Source: a virus. From it: a stretch of 47,433 nucleotides of DNA. The stretch is taken from the IMG/VR virus record IMGVR_UViG_3300028654_000026, positions 1 to 47,433 of that record, one strand, 5' to 3'. Positions 2,389-47,433 of the stretch are shown one piece after another. The notes beneath the pieces are model-generated. The model was not told the origin of the DNA, did no database searches, and saw only the letters and a list, made by a program, of their open reading frames with translations. Within the stretch, counting starts at the first letter, position 1. Each line of letters begins with the position of its first letter. The translations under genes were made by a program, and so were the position numbers.

Positions 2389-2822
2389 CGGGTAAGCCTC
2401 AATTCATCCACAACTTCGGCAGGTGGCCTAAAGAATCGCTCTTGCCCTCGACACTTCACGAAGGGGCACATGCGACGGTTCGCGAGCACGAAGCCGTAGC
2501 GCAGGTGATTGCGCCACGGTGAGCACTGGTCGGTTACGCAGTCCACGATATCGACTGCTCCAATAATTCCGCCGCACAGCATCGACTTCAGCGGCGGGAT
2601 TTGAATCAGCTCGGTTCTCCCGAGCTCTCGAGTCGCGTCGTAAATGTCAAACACCGCGCCGTTGTGCTCCGACACGGTGCACGAGCTCGACACATGGATC
2701 AGCACGGGCCCGCGATACTCGGTGGACCACGACCGGTTCTCGCAGCACTTCCACCACGCGTCGGGCAGCTCGAATACTGCCCATGCCCATGGTGCTTTGA
2801 CGGACAGGGCCAGAATGCTCAT
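2385..2822 (-). CDS. ASCH-domain-like protein
   Basis: 145 residues. The N-terminus (SILALSVKAPWAWAVFELP, then CENRSWSTEYRGPVLIHVSS) is typical of ASCH folds: an ALS...PWAW strand, an ENR.W..YRGP motif and LIHVS. ASCH domains are PUA-like RNA- or nucleotide-binding modules, so binding of RNA or modified nucleotides is the best guess. ATG at 2822 is chosen because the homology starts there and the upstream gene's stop overlaps it as ATGA; a longer frame exists but adds residues without homology. A near-copy of its first 48 codons opens the neighbouring gene. Confidence 0.7.
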   Translation of the reverse strand: MSILALSVKAPWAWAVFELPDAWWKCCENRSWSTEYRGPVLIHVSSSCTVSEHNGAVFDIYDATRELGRTELIQIPPLKSMLCGGIIGAVDIVDCVTDQCSPWRNHLRYGFVLANRRMCPFVKCRGQERFFRPPAEVVDELRLTR

Positions 2823-3490
2823 TCTTCGGGCTCCCATTCGCAGCCATCCCAGCCCAGCGCCGCGAGTTCTTCGGGCGACCACATAAATGCACCTTGCCAG
2901 TGCGCCATCGACCAGCACTCGTACTCAGCGCACTCGGCTGGTTTCACTTCGTGAACTTTGCAACCATCGATTGAACTGAAGAACACGCAAGGCGAATCGG
3001 CTGACCATGTCTCTTCGGCTATGAGCCACTTACCAGCAAATTCTTCGACTTGATGGTGGCGCAACAATACCGGGTGATTCGTCCCTCGACCGTCAACCAC
3101 TGTGCAGTACTTGAGAAAGAACTCACGAGGGCCGAGACCGAAGTGCACCGCAAGCCTAAGCAGGTCCGCTTGAGTCAATGCGCCCGGTCCCTTCAGGCAG
3201 CAGTTACCCGACTTGCAGCATTCGTTTTTGAGTTGCTTGAGCGCCGGCGGATGCTCTTCCTCGTACAGACGCAACCGACGTCGCTGATTCTCTCGCCAAA
3301 GCACCGACTGATACGCGCTCACGGCTTGGTTCTGCACGGCAGCTGGGCACGAGCTCGAAACGTGAATCAACACGGGCCCACGGTATTCGGTGGGCCAATC
3401 GCGGTTCTCGCAGCACTTCCACCACGCGTCGGGTAGCTCGAAGATTGCCCACGCCCACGGTGCTTTGACGGAGAGAGCAAGGATGGTCAC
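2679..3490. repeat. 144-bp direct duplication (copies 2679-2822 and 3347-3490)
   Basis: The two segments align base for base without gaps; about 120 of 144 positions match by hand count, including a run of 29 identical bases around TTCTCGCAGCACTTCCACC. Each copy encodes the first 48 residues of an ASCH-like protein. The divergence is partly synonymous, which indicates selection after an older duplication rather than an assembly artefact. Confidence 0.85.
2819..3490 (-). CDS. ASCH N-terminal segment fused to a YkgJ-like cysteine-cluster protein
   Basis: 223 residues, GTG start. Residues 1-48 repeat the ASCH N-terminus of the next gene almost exactly. From about residue 88 the protein has the layout of the YkgJ/UPF0153 zinc- or iron-chelating family: CCKSGNCCLKGPGALTQAD, RLAVHFGLGPREFF, CVFFSSIDGCKVHEVKPAEC and an AEYECW end. 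An ASCH core is therefore missing, and a metal-cluster domain is attached instead. It probably arose by duplication of the ASCH 5' end onto a YkgJ gene, or the reverse. Function is unknown; metal-dependent chemistry on nucleic acid is only a guess. Confidence 0.65.
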   Translation of the reverse strand: MTILALSVKAPWAWAIFELPDAWWKCCENRDWPTEYRGPVLIHVSSSCPAAVQNQAVSAYQSVLWRENQRRRLRLYEEEHPPALKQLKNECCKSGNCCLKGPGALTQADLLRLAVHFGLGPREFFLKYCTVVDGRGTNHPVLLRHHQVEEFAGKWLIAEETWSADSPCVFFSSIDGCKVHEVKPAECAEYECWSMAHWQGAFMWSPEELAALGWDGCEWEPEE

Positions 3491-6374: not shown

Positions 6375-6697
6375 AGCTCTGGCTCCTCGCCATCAGTATT
6401 CCGATCGTCCTCGCTGTCCGTGCTCTCAGGTAGCCCAATACCAATCGTTGAATAGTAGTGAGCCCATAGCCCACCGATGCGCGTGCGTACCTTATCTTCG
6501 GTCTCTTCGTGCAGCCCATAGAACGCACTGGGCGAGTAAAGATGCGTTTCCGCGTACAACTCAACGCCGTCAGCATCGGTCGACTTTTTCGGGTGCGGCA
6601 CCTGCACCCGAATCATCTGCACGCCAGCAAATGATACCTCAGTCACGAGACCATGGTGCTGTCGGTGCCCCATGAGCTCGATAGTTCCCCATGTCAC
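6371..6697 (-). CDS. Conserved-type phage protein (WGTIELMGHR family)
   Basis: 108 residues. The N-terminal pattern GTIELMGHRQHHGLVTEVSF, followed by RVQVPHP and a later LYSPSAFYGLHEET, is familiar from short phage proteins of unknown function in early operons. The C-terminus is acidic and probably disordered. No enzymatic motif is seen. It overlaps both neighbours by 4 bases. Confidence 0.6.
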   Translation of the reverse strand: MTWGTIELMGHRQHHGLVTEVSFAGVQMIRVQVPHPKKSTDADGVELYAETHLYSPSAFYGLHEETEDKVRTRIGGLWAHYYSTIGIGLPESTDSEDDRNTDGEEPEL

Positions 6698-7419
6698 GGC
6701 TCACCCCACGAGACGCCGACGAGCTTTCCGTCCTTGACTTCGACGCTCGTGGGTTTCTCGAGTACGATCACGTGACCGGGCAGAACCCAGAGCGCGAATG
6801 CGTACTGACCGAATTCAGCAAACGCTTTGATGCGCGCAGCCTTGTCGGCATCAACTTCGACGATCCCGATCTCAACTGGGAACAGATAAAACGCCATCCA
6901 GTCAGTGTCCCCGAGTGAGTCCCAGAGTGAGTCCTCGAGTGAGTCCCCGAGTGAGTCCCAGAGTGAGGCCCAGAGTGAGGCCCCGAGTGAGGCCCAGTCA
7001 GTGTCCCCGAGTGAGGCCCCGAGTGAGGCCCCGAGTGAGGCCCCGAGTGAGGCCCCGAGTGAGTCCCAGAGTGAAACCCCGAGTGAGGCCCTGAGTGAGT
7101 CCCCGAGTGAGGCCCTGAGTGAAACCCCGAGTGAGGCCCTGAGTGAGTCCCAGAGTGAGGCCCAGAGTGAGGCCCAGGGTGAGGCCCAGAGTGAGGCCCC
7201 GAGTGAGGCCCCGAGTGAGGCCCAGAGTGAGGCCGCCTCTTTCGGCGTCTTTACCCAATGGATCTCATACTTGACCAGTGCCGGGGCCACTATCACCGAG
7301 ATCGCCGACTCTGCCGCTGTCTTGTCAGTGACGGTACTAGTGGCCGCGTCGAACATCCGCTGACGGAACTGCTCGAGGGTAAGTTGCTGCTCGTCGGTTA
7401 GCTTATCGAGTTTGGCCAT
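6694..7419 (-). CDS. Tetrapeptide-repeat protein with DUF6745-like C-terminus
   Basis: 241 residues in three parts. Residues 1-60 are a mixed helical N-terminus. Residues about 62-173 are 28 tandem tetrapeptides of the form (A/D/V)SL(G/W/R), with two DTDW units at positions 20 and 28. Residues about 174-241 ([13 protein letters not shown] ... [20 protein letters not shown]) are a conserved-looking end resembling DUF6745 proteins, which also carry W/D-S-V/L repeats. Gly/Trp/Arg alternation gives a regular surface, perhaps a solenoid. Because unit number can change by slippage in multiples of 12 bp, length could vary without frameshift. Function unknown; start overlaps the previous stop as TAATG. 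Confidence 0.75.
6898..7238. repeat. 12-bp minisatellite, about 28 units
   Basis: On the + strand the unit is close to CCCCGAGTGAGG with CAG/CCG and GGCC/GTCC variants, repeated without interruption. GTCAGTGTCCCCGAGTGAG recurs at about 6901 and 6998, marking an internal higher-order duplication. Since 12 is a multiple of three, every frame on both strands stays open through it, producing long spurious ORFs. Confidence 0.92.
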
Positions 7420-9402: not shown

Positions 9403-10527
9403 TCAGACAGCCGCGGCGCGCTTGGCAGCAGCCTTGGCCATTGCCCTCGAGCCCGCCCGAGCACTGGTCCGCATGTAGCGAGCCGTGGTGGACATGTGCA
9501 GGTGCCCCAGTACGTACTGAACGCCCGTGATGTCCCCGTCGCTTTGCTCGAGTAGGTGGGTACCACCCGCCGAGCGCATGTGTTGTGGGCAAAGCCGGTT
9601 GGCCTTGTGCTTCGGCATCTTGGCCTCGAGCGCAGCCGTCAGCAGAACCCGCTTGTACCGGTGTCGGCCGAAGATGAGGCCATCGCCCTCGAGATGCAGA
9701 GCCTCCAAGGCCCGCACGCACTCCGGTGGCAGGTCGATCATGCGTTCGATCCCGATCTTGTCGTGCTCCTTGGGGATCCACCAGTCGGTGCGCCCTGGTG
9801 ACCACGTGACGCCGAGCTTGGCCACGTTCAGCACTTCGGGCCGCAGAGCGAGATAGTAGCCGAGCACAAAGCGAGCTCGTATCGGGTAGCGATTGCCGAG
9901 AGCATCGCGCCTCGACCATTCGGGAAGCGCGGCAATCAAACGAAGTATTTCCTCGGGGCTGTGCTCGTCCGCAGCGCACCGACGAGCCTTCGAGTAGCGC
10001 GTGCCCTTCGCGCGCACTGGCACACTCGGCACAGCGAACGGTGCAGATATGTGACCATGCTTGTGCGCATAGGCCACCAGCTGCCGGTAGCACGAGAATT
10101 CTTTGCGCACGGTCTTGGCCTGCACCTTTGCCAATCGTTTCGCAAGCAGGCGTTCGAAGGCTTCGACAGACCACGCCGCGGTCGTCGGCATCTCGGTTTC
10201 GAGTGCGTAGATGTAGAGCTCGCACGTCTCGCGAGTGGTCGCGCGCAGCACGCCCACCGTTGACGCTAGCCATTGCGCACCAACCTTAGAGGTTGACTTG
10301 CCTTCAATGACTGGTGAGCGCCCTGCTTGGTGTTCGCGTTCTGGCTCAAGTGTGCCAGCGAGGGCTGCGAGGTATTTCTCGAGCGCTTTGCTTTGAGCCT
10401 CGCTTCTATCGTACGTGCCAAGTCCGAGGTCGAAATCCCGTCCGTCGTCGAGCGTGAAGAGCACCTCGTACGGTCTGTCTCGTCGTTGTCTGATGCGGTA
10501 CGGCGTATCGAGTTTCGGGCGACCCAT
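9403..10527 (-). CDS. int: Tyrosine recombinase, phage integrase
   Basis: 374 residues. An N-terminal arm-binding-like domain (MGRPKLDTPYRI..., about 1-60), a SAM-like core-binding domain (about 80-175) and the catalytic domain follow. Catalytic residues: Arg229 (LALRPEV), Lys253 or Lys257 (IPKEHDK), Arg318 (CPQHMRSAGGTHLL), His342 (VLGHLHM) and Tyr351 (TARYM). Aligning on R..GGTHLL, the usual His of HxxR is Gln315, with a His one residue later. The 3' end faces attP 38 bases away, and the 5' end overlaps the excisionase-like gene by 262 bases. It should integrate the genome into a tRNA-Leu(CAG) gene. Confidence 0.93.
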   Translation of the reverse strand: MGRPKLDTPYRIRQRRDRPYEVLFTLDDGRDFDLGLGTYDRSEAQSKALEKYLAALAGTLEPEREHQAGRSPVIEGKSTSKVGAQWLASTVGVLRATTRETCELYIYALETEMPTTAAWSVEAFERLLAKRLAKVQAKTVRKEFSCYRQLVAYAHKHGHISAPFAVPSVPVRAKGTRYSKARRCAADEHSPEEILRLIAALPEWSRRDALGNRYPIRARFVLGYYLALRPEVLNVAKLGVTWSPGRTDWWIPKEHDKIGIERMIDLPPECVRALEALHLEGDGLIFGRHRYKRVLLTAALEAKMPKHKANRLCPQHMRSAGGTHLLEQSDGDITGVQYVLGHLHMSTTARYMRTSARAGSRAMAKAAAKRAAAV

Positions 10528-10661
10528 TGCTCAAGCTCCTCGACGGCAAACAGCAAACGACCGATCTGATACTCGGTCAAGTGACCGCGCACGAGTCGCT
10601 TGAAGGTGCGGACACTGACGCCGCACATGCTGGCAGCGTCCGTCTGATTGACCAGTTTCAT
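10266..10661 (-). CDS. Excisionase/AlpA-like HTH protein
   Basis: 131 residues. The first 50 (MKLVNQTDAASMCGVSVRTF, then RLLFAVEELEQWVARN) form a MerR/excisionase-type helix-turn-helix with wing. The remaining 80 are Ser/Arg/Thr-rich and are encoded in the region that also encodes the integrase N-terminus in another frame, a 262-base overlap. It is a good candidate recombination directionality factor: small, basic and directly upstream of int. ATG at 10661 overlaps the previous stop (ATGA). The C-terminal extension could be translated without being functional. Confidence 0.65.
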   Translation of the reverse strand: MKLVNQTDAASMCGVSVRTFKRLVRGHLTEYQIGRLLFAVEELEQWVARNSIRRTASDNDETDRTRCSSRSTTDGISTSDLARTIEARLKAKRSRNTSQPSLAHLSQNANTKQGAHQSLKASQPLRLVRNG

Positions 10662-21199: not shown

Positions 21200-21625
21200 T
21201 TATGGGCACGCGACGGGACCGCATGCCGTTTGGGCTGCAGCTTTGGTGGTTTGGTTCATGAGACACGACATGTCTTGCGTGAACCGAGAATCAGTCGTGT
21301 GCAGTGCGCACAGTCGAACGCATGACGACTGGTCAACGTTGCAGGTCAAGGACTGCGCCCGCGCACAGTACGCTTGGCAGGCGGTCGCGGTGCTCGGGGC
21401 TGAAGATGAGCCGCCCGTTGCCGCTTTGCCACCTGTCGCGCTCTTGCCTCCGGTTGCTGCCTTGCCACCCGTGGCAGCTCTGCCCCCTGTGCCCGCGTTG
21501 CCGCCGGTAGAGCACGGGCACGGTGGGCACTTTTTCGAGGTGGCATCAGCACAGGAACCGGTTTGAGTTGTTGGGCACCCAAACAGACAGAGCGCCGTGA
21601 CAATAGCCAATAATAGGCGATTCAC
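21200..21625 (-). CDS. Phage-encoded lipoprotein with ATGGK repeats
   Basis: 141 residues. A lipoprotein signal (MNRLLLAIVTALCLFGC) is followed by a CPPCPC segment and repeats TGGNAGTGGRAATGGKAATG continuing to about residue 72. The Cys-rich C-terminus (ACQAYCARAQSLTCNVDQSS, CVRLC, ACGPVAC) is probably disulphide-bonded. This style is common in Myxococcota lipoproteins. Position next to the holin-like gene suggests an outer-membrane spanin or a host-surface (exclusion) protein. Overlaps the previous gene by 4 bases. Confidence 0.65.
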   Translation of the reverse strand: MNRLLLAIVTALCLFGCPTTQTGSCADATSKKCPPCPCSTGGNAGTGGRAATGGKAATGGKSATGGKAATGGSSSAPSTATACQAYCARAQSLTCNVDQSSCVRLCALHTTDSRFTQDMSCLMNQTTKAAAQTACGPVACP

Positions 21626-36042: not shown

Positions 36043-37245
36043 TCAGGTTACCGTTGCGCGCGGCGCTTCGAACTTGTCGATAAACGACGGCTCACCAACG
36101 CCGACAAAGATTCGAGTCTGCCCAACAGCGGCCACGGCATCTTTCCTCGCGAGCTCGTATTGCGGCGAACCACTGCCGGTTGCATCGCCGTAGATCTGGA
36201 CCTGCCATGGCTCACGCATGCCGATATTGATTGCGCCTAGCTCTGACTCTGCGTTGTCGCCCTCGCACTCGAGGTACCAGTCCCACGGCTCGATCGCTAC
36301 TGTCCCACCCGTATAGGTGGCGAGGTCCTTTGCGGAGTCGAGCTCTTGAAGAATCACGGGACCCTTGAAGCCAAGACGCTTGATTGACCCTTCAATGTCC
36401 ATCGAGCCGCCGCCGGTTGAACCGCTACCCGCATGAGCAGCAATCACCTTAGCGTCAAGGATTCGGTCGATTTGCTTCTGCAATCGCTTGCTAGCAACAA
36501 TCGTTGTCGGATCCATGTAGCGAGGGGTTTCCCCGTCTGCCATGACCATCGTTGCCTTCTGGGCGATGGCGAGCCAAAGGTTATTCCAACCGTCTTCAAT
36601 CGACACATCAGCACTAGCGCTGTATTGCCAGATCCCGTTACCGTCCTTCGCGAATGGTCCACCGAGAGGCAGGAACCCACAATCCGTCGTAGATGCCTTA
36701 CCTTTGTGGTAATTCGAGTAGGTACCGAGACCGGTTGCTTTGTAGTTGAACGGATGCGCCGTGCTGAACAGGGCTTGACCGTCAAAGCACTTCAGTGGGT
36801 ACGAGTTACCGTTGGTGGTGTTGAGTACCAACGTTGTACCTTGACGAAGTGCGCCGACTGCCAATTCTTGGGGTAGACGAGCAACTTTTGCCGTTGCCTG
36901 TGAGACTGCCTCACTCATCAGGTTGATCCCCTGAATGACGTTGCCTCCCGACTGCGTATCCTTGAATTTGCCTTCAGAAATCTCAATTCCCCACTTGTGA
37001 AAGTGGTTGACGAAGATACTTTCAGCCAACACAAGGTCACTCAGATCGACGCCGCCGCCATCGGGGCCCCAATCTCGCAGCTTCTGCGCCTCAAGCAGGT
37101 GGAAGAAGTGCTCTTCCAAAGTGTCGCTCTCGAGCACCTTGACGAAACGTTGGTAGTTGAGATTGCGTGCAATCTTCGCGTACGTGTTGATCCGCTTGAA
37201 GTGGCAGGCGGTTCGAATCTTGTTGATTGTGATCTGCTCTAGCAT
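36043..37245 (-). CDS. Major capsid protein, Mu gpT-like
   Basis: 400 residues; AAAGGGATCGGG upstream. An N-terminal segment MLEQITINKIRTACHFKRIN and the hallmark CFDGQALFSTAHPFNYKATG, with VASKRLQKQIDRIL, place it in the Mu-like major head subunit (gpT) group with HK97 fold. No long delta domain precedes it; scaffolding is probably supplied by the protease gene product. Forms the icosahedral shell. Confidence 0.85.
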   Translation of the reverse strand: MLEQITINKIRTACHFKRINTYAKIARNLNYQRFVKVLESDTLEEHFFHLLEAQKLRDWGPDGGGVDLSDLVLAESIFVNHFHKWGIEISEGKFKDTQSGGNVIQGINLMSEAVSQATAKVARLPQELAVGALRQGTTLVLNTTNGNSYPLKCFDGQALFSTAHPFNYKATGLGTYSNYHKGKASTTDCGFLPLGGPFAKDGNGIWQYSASADVSIEDGWNNLWLAIAQKATMVMADGETPRYMDPTTIVASKRLQKQIDRILDAKVIAAHAGSGSTGGGSMDIEGSIKRLGFKGPVILQELDSAKDLATYTGGTVAIEPWDWYLECEGDNAESELGAINIGMREPWQVQIYGDATGSGSPQYELARKDAVAAVGQTRIFVGVGEPSFIDKFEAPRATVT

Positions 37246-37258
37246 TGCCCGATCCCTT

Positions 37259-37696
37259 TCAGCTCATCAAGTCCGCAGACTCGACTGCAGTCACTCGGAC
37301 GCCTACGCCACGGGTCGAATCAACGGCCCAGATTACCCCGGCGAATGCGCGGTTGATTCCGCCGCTCGTCTTGGTTTTGCTCACAGTGTCGCCGTCAACG
37401 AGGTAACACTTTGCAAGAAAGTCCGTTGCAATGGCGATGTTCCCGTCATTGGCGAACCACTCTAGATCAACAGGTCGATACAGCTGCGCTTGCACAGTCG
37501 TATCACCAGCGGTCTGGCTGTAGTCCTCGCATGCAGCACCAATGACGAACTCATTGGTCGCGCCGCTTGCAGGGCCAGCAGTGTACGTGCCTCGGATATT
37601 GGCGACGGCTTGATTTTGGCCACCAACCGCACCGGTCGCCAAGGCTAGCGTCATCGTGTAGATCGTCGAACGGTCTCGCGTTCTCGCGGTGCTCAT
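37259..37696 (-). CDS. Head decoration protein candidate
   Basis: 145 residues, Ala/Gly/Thr-rich beta sequence (TMTLALATGAVGGQNQAVAN, DTTVQAQLYRPVDLEWFAND, AFAGVIWAVDSTRGVGV). DUF2190 or decoration proteins lie in this position between protease and capsid. Overlaps the protease stop region by 4 bases. Probably stabilises the capsid surface. Confidence 0.62.
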   Translation of the reverse strand: MSTARTRDRSTIYTMTLALATGAVGGQNQAVANIRGTYTAGPASGATNEFVIGAACEDYSQTAGDTTVQAQLYRPVDLEWFANDGNIAIATDFLAKCYLVDGDTVSKTKTSGGINRAFAGVIWAVDSTRGVGVRVTAVESADLMS

Positions 37697-39402
37697 TGCT
37701 TGCCCCCGCGCAGTGAAGCGACGCGCGCCTCGGTTGCGTTGACAATCGCGTTAGCTTGCTCTGGAGAGAGCAAACCAAGTTCCTTCTTGCCACCGCCGAT
37801 ATCGATAAGGCCCGTGCTCTTGTTTCCAAGATTTAGGGATTTCAGCTCGGACTCGCTGAAGATAGACAAGTCAGGAGTTTCAGCGCCCGGATTGATGTCA
37901 ATCACCTTTGCGCCGGTGCCTTCGGTACGGCCGCGAGTGCCGGTTGCACCGATTGCCGCAACGCTGGGGTTCGGTGTGCCGAGCTTTGCAACTCGCCTGG
38001 ACAGCGTATCGATGGCTTGCGCTTGCTGCACGATGACAGCGTTCTGCGCAGCTAGCCGGCGATACGACGTGGCTTCACGCCGCAGACGTGCAGCGCTCGC
38101 ACGAAGTGAACGCGCGTGCAACATGTGCGTCTTGGCAGTTTTCGCCGCGTCCTTGGCGCCGCTTGTGACAGCAGCGAGGGCCTTTGCATCCTCGTCACCG
38201 GCTTCAGCTTCCGCCTTCTTCGCGTCGGTTTCGCACTTCTTCGCGTCCTCGTCGGACTCGGCAGAGCTCGAAGCGTCGTCGTCGGTTTCAGCCGCCGAAG
38301 CGTCGTCGCCGCCTTCGTCTTCACCCTCGTCACCGTCGGGCTCTTCCTTAGGCTTGTCCTTTGGTTCGTCCTTTGGTTCGTCTTTGGGCTCGTCGTCGCC
38401 CTCGGCCGAGTCGTCCTCAGCCATCTTTTTGAGCATGCCAGCAGCGCGCGCGGCTTTCTTCGCGTCGCTCCCAGATGCAATTTTCGCGAGCCCCTTTTTC
38501 ACGGCGTCAAAGTCGCCGCCATCGTCGGCCCGACTAATCACGCTCGCTTCTGGAGCTGGCAAACCTAGCGCCGCTCGCGCGGACGCTGCCAATGTCTTTT
38601 TTGGCTTCATGTCTGCGTCACTTTCCGCGCCTGTTGGCGCTTCGGTTAGTTCAGCTCCCACCACCATGGCAAGCGCTGCAGATTCACCGGCTACTTCGTC
38701 AGCGAGGCCAATATCCACAGCCTGTTGCCCGTGGAAGATGCCAGCCTGCCAGCTGCGAATGGTTTCGACGTCAATGCCGCGCCGTTCCGAAACCCACTGA
38801 AAGAATATCTCTGACTCGTAGTCAACGGAGGCTTGTATGGCCGCCTCGGTCTCGTCACTGATCTCGTTGCACGGATGGCCGTCAGCTTTGCGCAAACCAG
38901 ACGTAATGAGGCGAACATCCTCGCCCATAGCGTCGAGCATCTTCTTGACTGAGTGCACCTCGGCAATCACACCAATTGAACCGAAGCGCCCCTCTTCAGG
39001 CACCACGATGACATCGGCAGCCACCGCCAAAGCGAGACCCGCCGAGCACGTCTGACCATCGACGTACCAAACGAACAGCTTGCCACTCTCGTCAGCAAGC
39101 CGTCGAAGTTCGCGCGCGGTGTCGAAGCAACCGGACACGTCGCCGCCGGGCGTGTCACCGGAAACAAACACAACCTTCGCCGAGCTCGCGAACGCCTCAC
39201 GCATTCGGACAGTGATCTGGTCGTAAGACTCAAACCACCACTCATCGTGATGTGACAGCGGGCCACGAATCGCAACGTACGCTACGTCATCCGTAAACAG
39301 CTCCGCCTCTTGCTGTGGCTCGTCGGTGAACGCGTAGTCGATGCCGTAAGCGCCAGACGCACGAGGCTCGATTGCGACGGCGCCCTTGCGAATAAACTTC
39401 AC
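37693..39402 (-). CDS. S49-type capsid maturation protease fused to an acidic/scaffold tail
   Basis: 569 residues. Residues about 35-235 are an SppA/S49-type protease: VAYVAIRGPLS, VVFVSGDTPGGDVSG, QTCSAGLALAVAADVIVVP (likely nucleophile Ser120) and EGRFGSIGVIAEV. About 300-400 is Ala/Lys-rich then strongly acidic, with tandem EPKD units (38345-38395) and Asp/Glu/Ser runs. A coiled coil (about 425-470, RASAARLRREATSYRRLAAQ) and a C-terminal segment follow. The C-terminal half is likely the scaffold that is degraded on maturation. Overlaps portal by 4 bases. Confidence 0.82.
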   Translation of the reverse strand: MKFIRKGAVAIEPRASGAYGIDYAFTDEPQQEAELFTDDVAYVAIRGPLSHHDEWWFESYDQITVRMREAFASSAKVVFVSGDTPGGDVSGCFDTARELRRLADESGKLFVWYVDGQTCSAGLALAVAADVIVVPEEGRFGSIGVIAEVHSVKKMLDAMGEDVRLITSGLRKADGHPCNEISDETEAAIQASVDYESEIFFQWVSERRGIDVETIRSWQAGIFHGQQAVDIGLADEVAGESAALAMVVGAELTEAPTGAESDADMKPKKTLAASARAALGLPAPEASVISRADDGGDFDAVKKGLAKIASGSDAKKAARAAGMLKKMAEDDSAEGDDEPKDEPKDEPKDKPKEEPDGDEGEDEGGDDASAAETDDDASSSAESDEDAKKCETDAKKAEAEAGDEDAKALAAVTSGAKDAAKTAKTHMLHARSLRASAARLRREATSYRRLAAQNAVIVQQAQAIDTLSRRVAKLGTPNPSVAAIGATGTRGRTEGTGAKVIDINPGAETPDLSIFSESELKSLNLGNKSTGLIDIGGGKKELGLLSPEQANAIVNATEARVASLRGGKQ

Positions 39403-40817
39403 GCCGCCACCTTCCCCTCAGCCAGCGCCTTGCCGAGCGTGTACAGAATGGCCTTAGCCTCTTGCGACTTCTGGCCATCGTTGTCGTTCGACTTCGCCGA
39501 CTTGCCGATCTTCTCGATGGCCTCGAGAATCTTGCGGGATTCCTCTGGCGTGGCGGGCTCGGACGAAATTCCGAACTTGCGGAAGATCTCGCCCACCGGG
39601 AACTTGATGCCCATGACAGCGGCAACGCGCAGCATTGACTCGAGTCCGGACCCGAGCGCTGTGTAGATCGAAGCCTCGGCACTGAGGTCAGTCGGGCGCC
39701 GAACGTCGTAGCGGAACCCGGGCGAGTCTTCGATCTCGTCGGGGAACATCCACGCCGTAAACCAGGGGAGCACCTGCGTAGAAATTGTGTGCGCTAGCGG
39801 GACCGCACTGTCTTCGATCAGGTCGTAACGTACCGAGGCGTAAAGATCCTCGCTCGAGAACCCGGTGCCACCAGTGACGCTCACGAGTTGCCCCGCGAAC
39901 TGAATCATGAACGCCTCGTTGCACTCTTTTATCGAGCTATCGAAGCCTTCCCAGCCGCGACCGTTGGACTCGACCAGCTTGACGTCCCACCCTGGTTTGA
40001 CGCCGAATACGGTGTTGATTCCCCACGAGGCCACTTGCTGAAAGAAGCCGTTGGTCATCTTCTCGCTGGCACCCTGCGGACTGACCGCAACGCGTGCAGC
40101 GTTAGCCAGGTGATAAGACCAATTATCCTTGAGCGCCTGATTCGAGTCCTTGCGAACCCAACATCGACCAGCAGGGTGCCATTTGCCGTACTGCCACGGG
40201 GCCACACGAGGCCCCGTCAGATGTAACGCCCACCGCCCGTTACCTGGTTCAATCGGCACAATTCCGGCAGCAGTGCGCAAAATCCAGCAATTGAAAGGCC
40301 AGAGATAGAACAGGTCCTTTGGGTCTTTCCGCTCGAGTACGGGGTAGGGTCGGCCCTGAACGGGCACGAGCTCCCACAGTGCGACGTTCAGAAAGTCGGC
40401 ATCGTCCGCGCCCTGGCGAAGTTCCTGGGGGGGGCAGAGCAGGTCGAACACGGTAAACGCGCCGTCTGCACGCTGCAGCTCTTCCTGCACCCGTTGCGAG
40501 CCTGACCAGACTTTGGGCAAGCGCATCATTCCGCCGTTCTTCGTCGTCTGCAGTCCCGAGATCACCGAGTCCCGGCGCATCGCACGGCAAAGGTGCGACA
40601 CCATCGACAGGTCGCCCCAGTCGGCAGCCTGCGAGGCGATGTCCACATCTTCCAACATCCACTCGAGCCGCGTGCCCGAAAGTGTCTGTAAATTGCCGCC
40701 AAAAAGCTTTCGAATCGTTTCGACGACGCTTGTATCAACTCCAAAACCGGGGGGCGTTACGAAGCCTTCGTAGACCGTCTTGCCGATGAGTTGTGCTGCA
40801 CGTGAAACAATGCTCAC
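39399..40817 (-). CDS. Portal protein, DUF935 (Mu gp29-like)
   Basis: 472 residues, GTG start with weak ribosome site. DLSMVSHLCRAMRRDSVISG, then LWPFNCWILRTAAGIVPIEP, GFFQQVASWGINTVFGVKPG and FMIQFAGQLVSVTGGTGFSS match the DUF935 portal family (early 'D..i......R...v', late 'G.t.tt......s' segments). It forms the dodecameric vertex. Being first of the structural operon downstream of a terminator, it needs its own promoter in 40818-40973. Confidence 0.82.
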   Translation of the reverse strand: MSIVSRAAQLIGKTVYEGFVTPPGFGVDTSVVETIRKLFGGNLQTLSGTRLEWMLEDVDIASQAADWGDLSMVSHLCRAMRRDSVISGLQTTKNGGMMRLPKVWSGSQRVQEELQRADGAFTVFDLLCPPQELRQGADDADFLNVALWELVPVQGRPYPVLERKDPKDLFYLWPFNCWILRTAAGIVPIEPGNGRWALHLTGPRVAPWQYGKWHPAGRCWVRKDSNQALKDNWSYHLANAARVAVSPQGASEKMTNGFFQQVASWGINTVFGVKPGWDVKLVESNGRGWEGFDSSIKECNEAFMIQFAGQLVSVTGGTGFSSEDLYASVRYDLIEDSAVPLAHTISTQVLPWFTAWMFPDEIEDSPGFRYDVRRPTDLSAEASIYTALGSGLESMLRVAAVMGIKFPVGEIFRKFGISSEPATPEESRKILEAIEKIGKSAKSNDNDGQKSQEAKAILYTLGKALAEGKVAA

Positions 40818-41922: not shown

Positions 41923-42064
41923 TCGGTCCACCGCGATCGAGCTTCTTGCTGATTGCCTTCAGCTCCGCCAAGATGGCGTCAATCTTCCAGTACCAAAGCA
42001 CCCACGCGCGAGCGGCGAGGAAGATGACGAGCGCAACGATTAGAACTCCAAGTGCAGCGGTCAT
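41915..42064 (-). CDS. 49-residue single-pass membrane protein
   Basis: Starts MTAALGVLIVALVIFLAARA, a clear N-terminal membrane helix, followed by an amphipathic segment (WKIDAILAELKAISKKLDRG). It overlaps the lipoprotein stop by 4 bases and the next gene by 8. Together with the lipoprotein it may form a two-component envelope unit such as a miniature spanin-like or exclusion pair; that is inference. Confidence 0.55.
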   Translation of the reverse strand: MTAALGVLIVALVIFLAARAWVLWYWKIDAILAELKAISKKLDRGGPNV

Positions 42065-42501
42065 ATCTTCGGCTCACACATGTTGCAGGCATCGCACAAC
42101 AACCCCGTAGCGCACGACGTCACCTGCGAGACCGAGTTGAAGATGCAAGGACAGTAAAGCTCACCGAGCTGGGGGCACGACGTGTGCGGTCCGACGTAGT
42201 TGGTCGATGTAGCGGTCACCACGCAGATCGCAGTAGCCATCGACGACCCGCCAGTTGCGTTGGCTCCACCCGTTGCAGCGACGCGCCCACCAGTCGCGAG
42301 CGCGCCTCCCGTTGCTTTCATTCCACCGGTTGCGAGTGCGCCACCGGTTGCCGCTCCACCCGTGGACGAGGCAGAGTCGCCACCCGTGGCGATACTGGAC
42401 TGGAAAACTTCCGCGTTCACCTCGCCACCGTCCACGATAATATTCGTGGTCGAAGTACTCGAGCAAGCCACCAAACACAGTGCAATCGCCATAATCCTCA
42501 T
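42061..42501 (-). CDS. Second ATGG-repeat lipoprotein
   Basis: 146 residues from ATG at 42501. Lipoprotein signal MRIMAIALCLVACSS; then repeats (SSTGGAATGGALATGGMKAT and onwards, to about residue 92) and a Cys-rich C-terminus (CPQLGELYCPC, CATGLLCDACNMCEP). Same architecture as the 21200-21625 protein with little sequence identity outside the repeats. It is coupled to a small membrane protein. Candidate outer-membrane-anchored surface protein. Confidence 0.62.
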   Translation of the reverse strand: MRIMAIALCLVACSSTSTTNIIVDGGEVNAEVFQSSIATGGDSASSTGGAATGGALATGGMKATGGALATGGRVAATGGANATGGSSMATAICVVTATSTNYVGPHTSCPQLGELYCPCIFNSVSQVTSCATGLLCDACNMCEPKI

Positions 42502-42573
42502 AACCCAAGTATCCACGCCAAACTGCCGCGACACCAGCGGTTTTTGAACCACCCGCGCAACCACCCGGTATCA

Positions 42574-42861
42574 CTACTCATCTAGCTTGCGCTCCTGCCG
42601 CTTGAGCATCTCGATGGTTGCCTTGGTCCCATGTAGCGCCTCAAAATATTTGAGCGAATCGGGCACCTTCACTTCGCCCGGCCTGTGGTGGTACCAGGGG
42701 GTTCTGGATGCGCGACGGCCCGCACGGTTTTGACGCTTAGCTCGCTCCAATAGCTCGTTTTCGTCGGGGAGCTTTTCTGGCTCTGCCGTTGCGCTGTCAA
42801 TTGCACCGAGCACACGAACGAGGCCTCGACGCAGAGCGAGCAGCAAAGGGCGCGCGTTCAT
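42574..42861 (-). CDS. Small basic hypothetical protein
   Basis: 95 residues, Arg/Lys-rich and helical (PDENELLERAKRQNRAGRRA, LKYFEALHGTKATIEMLKRQ). It overlaps the glycosyltransferase stop as ATGA. No family recognised. Possibly a DNA- or capsid-associated small protein. Confidence 0.5.
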   Translation of the reverse strand: MNARPLLLALRRGLVRVLGAIDSATAEPEKLPDENELLERAKRQNRAGRRASRTPWYHHRPGEVKVPDSLKYFEALHGTKATIEMLKRQERKLDE

Positions 42862-44945
42862 GGCGCCTCAACTGTTGCCGTGAGCTCTTCGTACAGTAGG
42901 CAATAGTTTAGTGCACATTCGTGCATAGTAGAACCGGTCCAGCTCACCACAATTCTACTGCTCGGCGGTCGCAACGCTCCAAGCTCACACGCTAGAGACG
43001 AAGCGTTTCCCCACTGGTACCAACCAACGCCGACGACAACATCGTCTAGCCGCTCGCGCATTGTCGGCACGCTCGCAACCATCACAGGGCAACCGGCGGC
43101 CAGGCACTCGTCCACCGCCATTCCGTACGCCTCCTTTCGCGCCACTGCGGGCACAGCCACGTCAACGCTCTGCAGCAGCTGCGGCAATTCTTCTGGCGAA
43201 TAACGACCATGAAACCTCACGTGTTCAAGCTTGCTACGATCTGCAAACTCCACCCACTCACCGAGCACCGAGAATTCAAAACGGTTATCGTACTTGAGTA
43301 CTCGAGCGGCATCAGCAAACGCGTCCCACCCCTTCTCGGGCAGCACGCCGCCGACCCATGCCACCCTAACCCTATCCGTTGGGCGGTACGTATCAGCAAA
43401 CGGGTAGCTCGGTACGCCATGGGGGATCAACACTGTCTGAAGTTTTGCCCCGTCAATTCGATGACAACTCACATTTCGCTCGTAGCGCTCACGTAGAGAT
43501 TCACTCGGGAACACGATGCGGTCGACGTAACCCAACATCGACCCCACCTCGAGCGGTCGACGCTCAAGAAGCATCGGAAAGCTATCCGAGTGTCTCCCCT
43601 CCACTCGCACGGTCCACTCTTGCTCGACGCACTCTCGGCATTGCTGACAATCCTCGGCCGCGTCGCGTCCGCAGCTCCACCCCGCTGTCAGGTACGACGG
43701 GCAAAGGTAGAAGTCGTCGTGCACCGATAGGACCGTTGGGCAATATGCTCGCGCGATCTCGGGCAAACGAAACGTGCCAAAACCGCCGAGGTGTTGGAAG
43801 TGCACCACCTCCGGAGCCAGCGACTCGAGGCAATCGCAAAACCACTTCTCCACGTGCTCGGCGCGCAGCTGGAAAGGGAAGATTCCAAGGTCGATTTGCG
43901 ACTGCACCAGATGCGGCGCCATCACGATGTGAAGCTCACCGAACTCACCGACATGAGTTGAGGATTCGAGCGCCGCCTCCCGTGTCGGGTACATCACCAC
44001 GACGTCGAGCGACTCGCACAGTTCTTTGACGAGTCGCCGCTGAAACACCTCGAGCCCACCGAGCTTGCCCCAATGGTGGCAGACGAAGAGCACGCGCTTA
44101 CGATTACCGGTGCGACGTTGCCACAATCGAATTGCGATACTGACACGGTGTTGTGTCTGTTTGCCCTCGAGACACCAGTTATCAACGACCTTGTCGAATC
44201 CTGGATACTGCTCCAGAAACATCGCCTGGTGTTCTTCGCGTAGCTTTCGGGCGCGCCACCCAAATGACGCATGGTGTTCGTGCCACACGAAGAGGTTGTC
44301 AGCGAGAATACACGAGAACCCGGCAGCCTTGGCGCGCACGCTCCAATCGGTTTCTTCACCGTAACCCTTGCCCCACTTCGGATCGAAGCTCCCGACGGCC
44401 TCGAGCGCTTCACGAGTCAGCATCATGCAAAAACCGACGGCGCAAGGAATCTCGGGGAAAGACTCGCCTGAGGTCTCTTCGACGATGTGATCCATAGCCT
44501 CGGGGTCAAGCCAGTCAGGAAGGTCATTGTCGTAAGCGTTCGGTACCGAGTAGTGGCTGGCGTTATTCGACAGTGGAGATATCGCACCGACGCGCACCCC
44601 GCGTTCAGTCCCTTGCGCTCGCGCCTCGTCGATACGCTCGACCCACCTCGGAGGCACTATCGTGTCCGAGTTGAGCAAGATGGGCTCGGTACCAGTCGCC
44701 AGCGCTTCACGAATTCCCTCGTTCGCAGTCTTGACGAAGCCCAGATTCTTCGAATGAAACGTCACGATCATTCGCTCGCTCCAAGTAAAGTCTTGCAAAT
44801 AGCGAATGACGTCGCCCTCTCGACTGCAATCGTCAATCACTAGGATGCGATGCTCTTTCGGTGTATTCCTCAGCACCGAATCGATGCACTTCTTGACGTG
44901 CTCGAGCGCTCCAAAAACTGGGATGATGATGGTGTACTTGTTCAT
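42858..44945 (-). CDS. Two-domain glycosyltransferase (GT2-type plus GT4-type)
   Basis: 695 residues. Residues about 1-270 are a GT-A family 2 domain: YTIIIPVFGALEHVKKCIDS, ILVIDDCS, NLGFVKTANEG, ILLNSDTIVP (the DxD-like NSD) and KGYGEETDWSVRAKAAGF. Residues about 285-695 are a GT-B domain: VLFVCHHWGKLGGLEVFQRR, VAWVGGVLPEKGWDAFADAA and, near 630, KEAYGMAVDECLAAGCPV (E-x7-E, GT4). It should make or extend a glycan with two linkages. In a phage late operon it may glycosylate virion proteins, DNA or host surface glycan. Overlaps terminase by 4 bases. Confidence 0.85.
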   Translation of the reverse strand: MNKYTIIIPVFGALEHVKKCIDSVLRNTPKEHRILVIDDCSREGDVIRYLQDFTWSERMIVTFHSKNLGFVKTANEGIREALATGTEPILLNSDTIVPPRWVERIDEARAQGTERGVRVGAISPLSNNASHYSVPNAYDNDLPDWLDPEAMDHIVEETSGESFPEIPCAVGFCMMLTREALEAVGSFDPKWGKGYGEETDWSVRAKAAGFSCILADNLFVWHEHHASFGWRARKLREEHQAMFLEQYPGFDKVVDNWCLEGKQTQHRVSIAIRLWQRRTGNRKRVLFVCHHWGKLGGLEVFQRRLVKELCESLDVVVMYPTREAALESSTHVGEFGELHIVMAPHLVQSQIDLGIFPFQLRAEHVEKWFCDCLESLAPEVVHFQHLGGFGTFRLPEIARAYCPTVLSVHDDFYLCPSYLTAGWSCGRDAAEDCQQCRECVEQEWTVRVEGRHSDSFPMLLERRPLEVGSMLGYVDRIVFPSESLRERYERNVSCHRIDGAKLQTVLIPHGVPSYPFADTYRPTDRVRVAWVGGVLPEKGWDAFADAARVLKYDNRFEFSVLGEWVEFADRSKLEHVRFHGRYSPEELPQLLQSVDVAVPAVARKEAYGMAVDECLAAGCPVMVASVPTMRERLDDVVVGVGWYQWGNASSLACELGALRPPSSRIVVSWTGSTMHECALNYCLLYEELTATVEAP

Positions 44946-47335
44946 TGGTGTCTGCCTTTCTTGATATTCCTCATGTACGTGTTGAACGCGTCTCGCGGGT
45001 TGACCGCTTTCACTTGTGACTCTGCATCTTGCTGCTCAGCTTCTGTCGTATCCTCAGCCACCGGGAACGCGTGGTGCATGTACGCCGCATAGGCAAACAC
45101 GCGCAGCATATCCAGGCGGTCTGGGCTTCGGTGCAGAACCTTGCGGTATCCTTCGGGGCCATCCTTGCGCGTCGCAGATCGAATCGAGTCGTACCAGACA
45201 CCATCAACACGACGACGAACGAAGTACCACTTTGAGTGATTCATCTCTTGGCGCAACTTGTCATCGTGCGGGACGGCCCCACCTCGAGCAAGCCACCGTG
45301 CCAAGTGATAATGCGCCTCGTCGCCCACGAGCTCGAAGTCAAACTTCGCGGGTGCCTGCTGACCGAAGTACACCGGCACGACCTCGAACAACACCTTCTC
45401 GTGAGCAGCCAAGCGCGTCGTTGCCAAGTAGTCCTCGAGGCGATTCACCACCTTGTGTCCAACGCCGTCAGCATCCACGGCAACGATTGCCACCTCGTTG
45501 CGGTGCTCGCGGTGTCGCTCGATGAGCTCAATGACTAGGTCCAGATAATCTTCTTTCGTCCACGCGCGACCGACGCGCTTCTCAAGTAACTTGAAACCAC
45601 GCACGGCACCCGCACACGCCTCGTCGCCCTCGCCACTCTCGCCCGCTGGATCGATAGGAATTACGAGCCGTCCGCGCGCTTCGGTTGCGGAGTAGTTATC
45701 GACGTCTTGCGAGCGCAGTATATGCTGCGGTTGGTAGATACACAGCTCGTCAAACTTCGGGTACAGCCCGCGGTTGTTGATGAGGTAGATCGGGTTCTCT
45801 CGGCCACGGTCGTCAGACAGCTCATCCGCTTTCAGCTCGGCAGCATCGGGTAGGTAAGGCAGCTTAGTGCGTGCTGCAACCTCACCGCTCAAGTTCACGA
45901 CGTTCCAACCGTACAACGCTCGAGTCTTCTCGTCGTTGACCGCGTCCCACATCGGATGTTCTGCACTGTCGAGGCAGTTACCTGGCCCAAAGAAACGCGC
46001 TTCGGGTCCCGCGATATTTCCCTTCCATGCGTTGAACAGCTCGTAACTCAGCCCCGAAAACTCGTCGCAAATAACGAGGATATGAATGCCGTGGTACCCA
46101 CCGAGCGACGTTGCCTCTTTGCCAGTGATGCCGATGATGAAGCGTTCCTTGTCATCGCTCCAGATCCCCTTGGTCGGCGTTTCGCATGGCTCCGCATCAA
46201 TCACCTGAGAGTGCGGGCAAGGTCGAGCGGTGACACCAGCGCGCCTGCAGTCGAGACAGATCCCTGATCGGCTCAGGCATCGAAGAATCTCCGCCCAGTC
46301 CTGGGTTCGCAGCTGCACGCCCGTGAAGTTGGAAACACATACGCGACCATCCTCCCAGCAGCAGTAACGCCACCATGACAGCCAACCAACGCCCTTAGTC
46401 TTACCAACACCACGTGCACTGGGTCCCACTGTGCGCTTGTGGTCTCGCACCGATTCAAGCAGCGTCACCTGGTCGTCGTCGGTACCGTCCGGATCTTCCC
46501 ACGGGTCCTCGCCAAGGATGGTGCGCACGAAGCCCACCGGGTCGTTTTGAAATTCGGTGCAAGGGAACGATATCGATCGAACGCACTCGAGGGAGCGCGC
46601 CAGGCGATCTGCAAATGGACCGCTACCAGTGAGCGCACCGATGACGAGCAAACGGTCGTGAGGCAACGGCTTGAGCAGCGCGCACACCGTCGTCTCGGTG
46701 GACGCCCAAGCTCCCGTGCGCATGAGGTCCTCAGGCTCGTCGCGCCGCTCGTACTTTTCGATCACGCGCGCAGTCGACCGTCTGAACTGCGAGTGACGAC
46801 GGTAGAGCTCGGACTGGACGTCGGGGTCGATGCTCGTTTGACGCTCGACGGACTCAGGCAGCAGCTCTCGCATCGTCGCCAATGACTTGGAAATCTCGAC
46901 GGCTGGTCCAGACGTTGGCGGCTCGAGAAGCACCGAGCGCAACTCGGGGTGAGTGCAGGCACCGAGCACACACGAGCGCATTGCCTGGTACTGCATGTGC
47001 CCAACGAGGCGGTCGATCTCGTTGAGAGCCCCAACGTGGGACTCGATGACGCCCGTGCAGTCGGCCACCGTCGCCAGCGCGCGAGATAGCCATGCGACCT
47101 CGGGGTTCGTCTTTAGGTCGCTCGACCCGCGACGAGGTGACGGCGCTTCCTGCTCGGCTACCGGGTAAGCCCTAGCCAGTCTCGCTAGGAAGTCCGCAGA
47201 CGGGGGCCGCTTCCCGTTGCGCACTAGGGAAGCCGCGGTGCGCGAAACCCCCATTGCCGTGGCGACGGTGGCTATTCCCCAGCGGTCGCAGAGGGTGGCG
47301 AGGCGTTCGAGGGCTACCGAAATCTCAGGACTCAT
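44942..47335 (-). CDS. terL: Terminase large subunit with N-terminal HTH domain
   Basis: 797 residues. Residues 1-60 are an XRE/Cro-like HTH (LATLCDRWGIATVATAMGVS, RTAASLVRNGKRPPSADFLA). Residues about 75-290 are mostly helical. The ATPase has Walker A GPSARGVGKT (304-313) and Walker B HILVICDEFSG (418-428), with a Cys/His insertion C360-C363-C373-H375. The RNase-H-like nuclease shows VIPIDPAGESGEGDE and IVAVDADGVGH. No separate small subunit gene was found, so the N-terminal part may recognise DNA. It packages the genome; upstream GTAACG repeats are a possible target. Confidence 0.85.
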   Translation of the reverse strand: MSPEISVALERLATLCDRWGIATVATAMGVSRTAASLVRNGKRPPSADFLARLARAYPVAEQEAPSPRRGSSDLKTNPEVAWLSRALATVADCTGVIESHVGALNEIDRLVGHMQYQAMRSCVLGACTHPELRSVLLEPPTSGPAVEISKSLATMRELLPESVERQTSIDPDVQSELYRRHSQFRRSTARVIEKYERRDEPEDLMRTGAWASTETTVCALLKPLPHDRLLVIGALTGSGPFADRLARSLECVRSISFPCTEFQNDPVGFVRTILGEDPWEDPDGTDDDQVTLLESVRDHKRTVGPSARGVGKTKGVGWLSWWRYCCWEDGRVCVSNFTGVQLRTQDWAEILRCLSRSGICLDCRRAGVTARPCPHSQVIDAEPCETPTKGIWSDDKERFIIGITGKEATSLGGYHGIHILVICDEFSGLSYELFNAWKGNIAGPEARFFGPGNCLDSAEHPMWDAVNDEKTRALYGWNVVNLSGEVAARTKLPYLPDAAELKADELSDDRGRENPIYLINNRGLYPKFDELCIYQPQHILRSQDVDNYSATEARGRLVIPIDPAGESGEGDEACAGAVRGFKLLEKRVGRAWTKEDYLDLVIELIERHREHRNEVAIVAVDADGVGHKVVNRLEDYLATTRLAAHEKVLFEVVPVYFGQQAPAKFDFELVGDEAHYHLARWLARGGAVPHDDKLRQEMNHSKWYFVRRRVDGVWYDSIRSATRKDGPEGYRKVLHRSPDRLDMLRVFAYAAYMHHAFPVAEDTTEAEQQDAESQVKAVNPRDAFNTYMRNIKKGRHQ

Positions 47336-47433
47336 GGCGTAACGCCCCCGTTACAGGTTCGTGATTTGGTGACCGGTGGACCGTTTTCGTTACTGGCTGT
47401 AAATTTTGAAAGTCCGCGCAGGGAAAATCTGAG
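47336..47433. promoter_or_regulatory. Region upstream of terminase with GTAACG repeats
   Basis: No gene. Contains the hairpin GTAACG-CCCC-CGTTAC at 47339-47354, directly before the terminase ATG, and a third CGTTAC at 47388-47393. Presumably holds the late promoter; clear -35/-10 boxes were not found. The sites could be bound by the HTH of the terminase or mark a packaging site. Confidence 0.45.

Follow-up and report, generated by a model that had tools for sequence, protein, structure and literature searches.

Comparison with described terminases

The small terminase subunit (TerS) binds the packaging site and passes the DNA to the large subunit (TerL). The two subunits normally differ in oligomeric form, TerS assembling into rings of approximately 8-11 subunits and TerL into pentamers, and the way in which TerS engages the packaging motor is still debated. 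In phage lambda, the DNA-binding small subunit gpNu1, whose gene is next to the genome end, recruits gpA. These are separate proteins, the small subunit outnumbering the large one in each complex, and the helix-turn-helix (HTH) of gpNu1 is winged and not of the XRE type.

We analysed a whole IMG/VR record of 47,433 bases, classed as linear and referred to here as the window. It contains an open reading frame (ORF) in which an XRE/Cro-type HTH and a helical segment precede a TerL. The ATPase/nuclease core is shared with PacB of phage P1 (phrog_2; 28% identity to PacB over residues 385-527). However, PacA and PacB are separate proteins, and PacB has no HTH extension. In RcGTA, the C terminus of the small terminase gp1 contacts the TerL ATPase domain, and DNA binding by gp1 is weak and shows no clear specificity (PMC6854486). 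The polarity of this contact, from the TerS C terminus to TerL, is the one that a TerS-TerL fusion would keep, although the RcGTA subunits are separate proteins.

Prophages of Myxococcota and IMG/VR contigs (for example L234, L238, L337, L356) resemble the window in the TerL motif CxxC...CPHS, in the Mu-like portal and head genes, and in having an XRE-type HTH and a helical segment upstream of TerL. However, there these are two genes, often overlapping or abutting and never in one frame (0/74). We consider it probable that the window ORF is a derived in-frame fusion of TerS (residues 1 to about 235) and TerL (from about 236 to 797), encoded by a temperate phage with a contractile tail whose host is probably a myxobacterium. 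In the open-access literature, no paper describing a TerS-TerL fusion ("fused terminase") was found.

The probable fused terminase gene

The features of the gene and of the adjoining record end are as follows.

44942..47335, minus strand: fused terminase ORF, 797 amino acids with an ATG start, stop included; the same ORF occurs in an independent contig
47147..47284, minus strand: XRE/Cro-type HTH, residues 18-63 (Pfam HTH_31/HTH_3, phrog_3642, AlphaFold with most pLDDT values over 90, fold matches to XRE repressors)
46907..47146, minus strand: loop and long helix (78-126), residues 64-143; a gap in the alignment, modelled with low confidence (pLDDT about 44-72)
46631..46906, minus strand: residues 144-235, helical, aligned with the C-terminal hairpin of separate TerS; statistically marginal
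46553..46630, minus strand: junction, residues 236-261, equivalent to the beginning and leader of free-standing TerL in relatives
45056..46552, minus strand: TerL core (ATPase and predicted nuclease), residues 262-760 (phrog_2 match, alignments)
46397..46420, minus strand: Walker A, residues 306-313 (SARGVGKT), with S306, G309, G311 and K312 invariant
46208..46258, minus strand: cysteine motif CxxC...CPHS, residues ~360-376, typical of Myxococcota-type TerLs (alignment)
46061..46081, minus strand: Walker B, residues 419-425, ending in D424-E425, both invariant
45650..45652, minus strand: predicted nuclease acid D562, invariant in both TerL alignments
45473..45475, minus strand: predicted nuclease acid D621, invariant in both TerL alignments
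45119..45121, minus strand: predicted nuclease acid D739 (RSPDR motif), invariant in both TerL alignments
46721..46723, minus strand: in-frame ATG at residue 205, a speculative internal start, with GAGG upstream
47336..47433: 98 bases from the ORF to the record end, a possible physical genome end and candidate site for the HTH

The profile phrog_2 "terminase large subunit" matches residues 241-755 (E=4e-10), and alignment with four known TerLs, including P1 PacB, places the start of the core near residue 262. The Walker residues K312, D424 and E425 are invariant across four other TerLs and seven Myxococcota TerLs. The same alignments show D562, D621 and D739, the acids of a predicted RNase H-like nuclease, to be invariant. 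As expected for a TerL gene, it lies upstream of the portal, protease and major head genes. The sequence-only reading had taken 44942-47335 for a TerL carrying its own HTH and helical N-terminal region; its ORF is exact and the TerL motifs are intact.

The HTH, which that reading had assigned to the first 60 residues, is placed at about residues 18-63. HTH_31 matches residues 18-63 (E=1.3e-5; 25.8 bits, just below the cut-off of 27), HTH_3 scores at its cut-off (E=8e-5, 23.0 bits), and phrog_3642 "HTH DNA binding protein" matches the fused ORF with E=6e-5. The AlphaFold model has pLDDT 94-97 across residues 11-50, and the best structural matches of the extension model are XRE/Cro-type repressors; these fill the lists, with no TerS entry among the PDB fold matches listed. 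The HTH is situated inside the 797-residue TerL ORF and not in a free-standing gene, as it would be in an XRE regulator.

The stretch between the HTH and TerL has about 190-200 residues and is predicted to form a loop at 62-77 and then mainly helices (78-254). The earlier reading had proposed about 215 helical residues here; the TerL core starts from about residue 262 rather than 275-290. The structure prediction that had been suggested as a check was made with AlphaFold for residues 1-262 (pLDDT 74, pTM 0.35). It contains a confident HTH followed by helices 144-165, 171-197, 208-221 and 225-235, with an additional uncertain helix 78-126. The model of a separate TerS (pLDDT 92) consists of an HTH, a hairpin 105-120/127-161 and two short helices, and the order of the elements is the same in both. 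However, the input comprised 52 TerS sequences, and the 1-262 model, for which the TerS alignment served as a guide, is not independent proof.

The G+C content at the third codon position is uniform throughout the extension, at about 0.74-0.80. At the junction, the start of the L239 TerL, MSTLTG...RRGFPCLEFADDPVGF, is aligned with ALTGSG...SFPCTEFQNDPVGF of the window. A metagenome contig from 3300028666 (IMG/VR) contains the identical full ORF, with 99.93% identity over 11,959 bases of the window, and thus the fused ORF is not due to chance. In searches with the whole protein or with residues 1-289, close relatives were found only among same-population contigs of IMG/VR, and none in genome contigs.

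One could suppose an assembly or sequencing artefact, an indel within a terS/terL overlap having joined two separate genes. Indeed, in many relatives the genes overlap in different frames, and so a single indel would suffice. However, the ORF is open and identical in two contigs of different metagenome assemblies, and the TerS-like C-terminal and TerL N-terminal segments share one frame, while both other frames have stops around the junction. This makes an artefact very improbable.

Another possibility is that the fusion is only partly obligate, with the internal ATG205 also yielding a TerL of about 593 amino acids and restoring an unequal TerS:TerL ratio. This is the sole start codon within the first 330 codons that has a Shine-Dalgarno-like sequence at a suitable spacing. 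On the other hand, the four-base match is weak, the annotated start itself has no such sequence, and ATG205 lies inside the TerS-like hairpin rather than at the junction. We consider such internal initiation unlikely.

Separate terminase genes in related phages and prophages

Relatives were found by a protein search of 379 Myxococcota genomes followed by a profile search of 184 genomes of one order. The Myxococcota TerLs found have 30-36% identity to the window TerL and share the CxxC...CPHS motif with it. They are of normal size, about 550 amino acids, and are preceded by a separate gene of about 190-230 amino acids encoding an XRE-like HTH, a low-complexity linker and a C-terminal helical hairpin. 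The C-terminal segment ends in a motif close to HPAWxRLxxaIxxALxPHPxAAxAVxxAL. In several Myxococcota prophages the stop codon of this gene overlaps the TerL start (GTGA or ATGA).

The same arrangement is seen in viruses. A profile of four Myxococcota-type TerLs retrieved 80 IMG/VR loci, and with a TerS profile that excluded the window a separate TerS-like gene was found upstream of TerL in 74 of them, in no case in the TerL frame. It abuts or overlaps TerL in about half of the loci; in the others, 0.1-4 kb lie between. The TerS profile had no match in the remaining six loci, five of which have less than 200 bases upstream of TerL; in the sixth, L313, no match was found in about 1.3 kb. The window portal matches 87 of 91 related loci (best identity about 40%), the protease 81 and the major head protein 71. 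The relatives also share the gene order of the window. An earlier set of 80 distant TerL relatives was too distant for the TerS comparison; their TerL frames start near the core, at most 85 residues ahead of it.

These separate genes are called TerS here by position and architecture. The family has at best weak matches to known TerS families, its members are named in databases only as HTH proteins, and it had no matches in the phage records searched. Their role as terminase small subunits is probable.

In the TerL tree, the window falls inside the separate-gene clade with branch support 100/97, although its exact place there is unsure because its branch is long (4.4 against a median of 0.8). 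Since the relatives have separate genes and the window TerL is inside their clade, the fused state is rare and probably derived. It is carried by two near-identical contigs only. The sequence-only reading had called such a fusion unusual, and indeed none of the 80 viral relatives is fused.

Several candidate fusions were rejected. The long frame of L365 reads arginine-rich sequence out of frame, ahead of an ordinary TerL, and the extended frames of up to 931 amino acids in Myxococcota TerLs are either out-of-frame readings over an overlapping TerS gene or contain an intein. The TerLs of L235 (G347:C530) and L357 have an intein-like insertion of about 310-350 amino acids exactly in Walker A, with the borders GRKTGK|LLHDDTP...VPTHN|S and HKIGK|LLADDTP...VPTHN|S, respectively. 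The small subunits themselves are modular. The TerS-like gene of L275 encodes about 107 amino acids and no HTH; in L276 the same C-terminal segment is joined to a different N-terminal domain, and a 310-residue protein of L235 contains this segment twice.

Origin of the N-terminal extension

A TerS profile built without the window was compared with the 710 six-frame ORFs of the window. The top match was the fused ORF (E=8e-4), the next having E=0.13. Within it, two segments are matched, residues 22-63 and 150-235, and their order is correct. Most of the score comes from the HTH, and this part of the match is generic, as alignment would be expected with any XRE protein. The extension scores 14-21 bits, compared with 31-144 for true family members in leave-one-out tests. 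It lacks the WRxG tryptophan common in the HTH of separate TerS, and residues 64-143, about 80 extra residues, have no counterpart in the separate genes.

For the C-terminal part alone, the HMM score was equalled by 4 of 5000 shuffles, and when ranked against 394 gene-like decoys other than true members, the segment came first by a small margin. The profile-profile score was 11.5, which is not significant, some shuffles reaching 19.7. The best local alignment spans 70 columns without long gaps and stops three residues short of the TerS C terminus, where TerL begins. Since the C-terminal similarity is statistically marginal, homology to TerS beyond the HTH is likely but not proven. The claim of a fusion is carried by position and architecture.

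No separate small terminase was found in the 47,433-base linear record, either by the TerS profile among the 710 ORFs or by a PHROG search of 40 window proteins, in agreement with the earlier reading. The only TerS-family match in the latter search was 10266-10661 (phrog_57, E=7e-6). It was rejected, as excisionases match this gene better (9e-9) and it adjoins the integrase.

The extension could instead be an unrelated XRE regulator-like domain attached to TerL, serving autoregulation or other DNA binding, with the real TerS unrecognised or beyond the record ends. The HTH does score higher with generic XRE families than with the TerS profile (25.8 bits with Pfam versus about 14), the C-terminal likeness is marginal, and a linear record may be incomplete. 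However, in the relatives this very slot is taken by a separate TerS gene that itself encodes an XRE-HTH protein, the record has no other TerS candidate, and the best C-terminal alignment is colinear, lacks long gaps and stops where TerL begins. We judge an unrelated domain to be rather improbable and a TerS origin of the extension likely. The TerS-TerL fusion proposed from the sequence alone is thus supported, the slot occupied by TerS in relatives being filled here by an in-frame extension.

Genome end

The window and the 3300028666 contig (L090) end at the same base, 47433, 98 bases upstream of the fused gene. Among relatives, TerS lies at most about 1.2 kb from the contig end in 13 of 21 contigs longer than 41 kb. 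This suggests a fixed genome end. In many relatives of 41-48 kb, too, the contig stops no more than about 1.2 kb ahead of TerS. Because the TerS genes of relatives are near contig ends and both fusion contigs end 98 bases upstream of the gene, it is plausible that recognition takes place near a physical, cos-like end.

The last 98 bases contain GTAACG three times and an inverted repeat beside the ATG. These were rejected as evidence of a terminase-binding site, as the hexamers were equalled in 555 of 5000 random phage windows and the inverted repeat in 16%.

Phage context and host

The fused gene is followed downstream by genes for a glycosyltransferase, a TGG-repeat lipoprotein, a Mu-type portal and an S49-type head protease, then by a virion structural protein, a gpT-like major head protein and a tail-sheath candidate. 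The positions of the head genes are as follows.

39399-40817: portal (Mu-type)
37693-39402: head protease (S49-type)
36043-37245: major head protein (gpT-like)

The window also contains genes for a tyrosine integrase, an excisionase-like MerR protein, a replicative helicase and exonuclease VIII. These genes, together with the tail-sheath candidate, indicate a temperate contractile-tailed phage.

Lipoprotein-like genes with TGGxxA repeats are found at 42061-42564 and 21200-21625, and the genomes retrieved with this pattern are mostly Myxococcota/Polyangia. Since, in addition, relatives in this phage family occur as prophages there, we infer that this soil-type phage is likely to have a myxobacterial host.

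A two-domain glycosyltransferase (42858-44945) is encoded directly after the fused terminase. It had no match in 91 related-phage loci and is therefore a cargo gene of the lineage of the window. The sister phage L091 (G003, 42304 bases) has head genes 97% identical to those of the window and is 81-93% identical in pieces near both ends; it breaks off inside the glycosyltransferase, so that the terminase is outside the sequence. A protein of 241 amino acids with a long run of four-residue repeats is encoded at 6694-7419. The adjacent genes 2385-2918 and 2819-3490 have nearly identical N-terminal stretches of about 45 amino acids (LALSVKAPWAWA...VLIHVSSSC), followed in 2819-3490 by a cysteine-rich domain. 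The pair is a recent partial duplication.

Implications

The ancestral terS and terL genes may have shared a few bases in different frames, as they do in several relatives, and a small frameshift at this overlap would have joined them. In the fused protein, the HTH would recognise a site close to the genome end that lies just before the gene, bringing the tethered ATPase/nuclease there in cis to cut the DNA and start packaging into the Mu-like head. TerS and TerL would then act in a 1:1 ratio and a separate TerS ring would be absent, unless free TerL is also supplied by internal initiation or by cleavage; a pentameric motor would carry five HTHs. Tentatively, this may be a natural single-polypeptide terminase, 1:1 and without a free TerS ring, whose motor carries its own site-recognition domains.

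If this is true, a natural 1:1 fusion would mean that a terminase can do without a separate TerS ring. The polarity of contact would be fixed, from the TerS C terminus to the TerL N terminus, and a single protein would be available for structural work on packaging initiation. Finally, the separate TerS genes of the relatives provide a probable function for HTH genes that the profile libraries searched miss as terminases.
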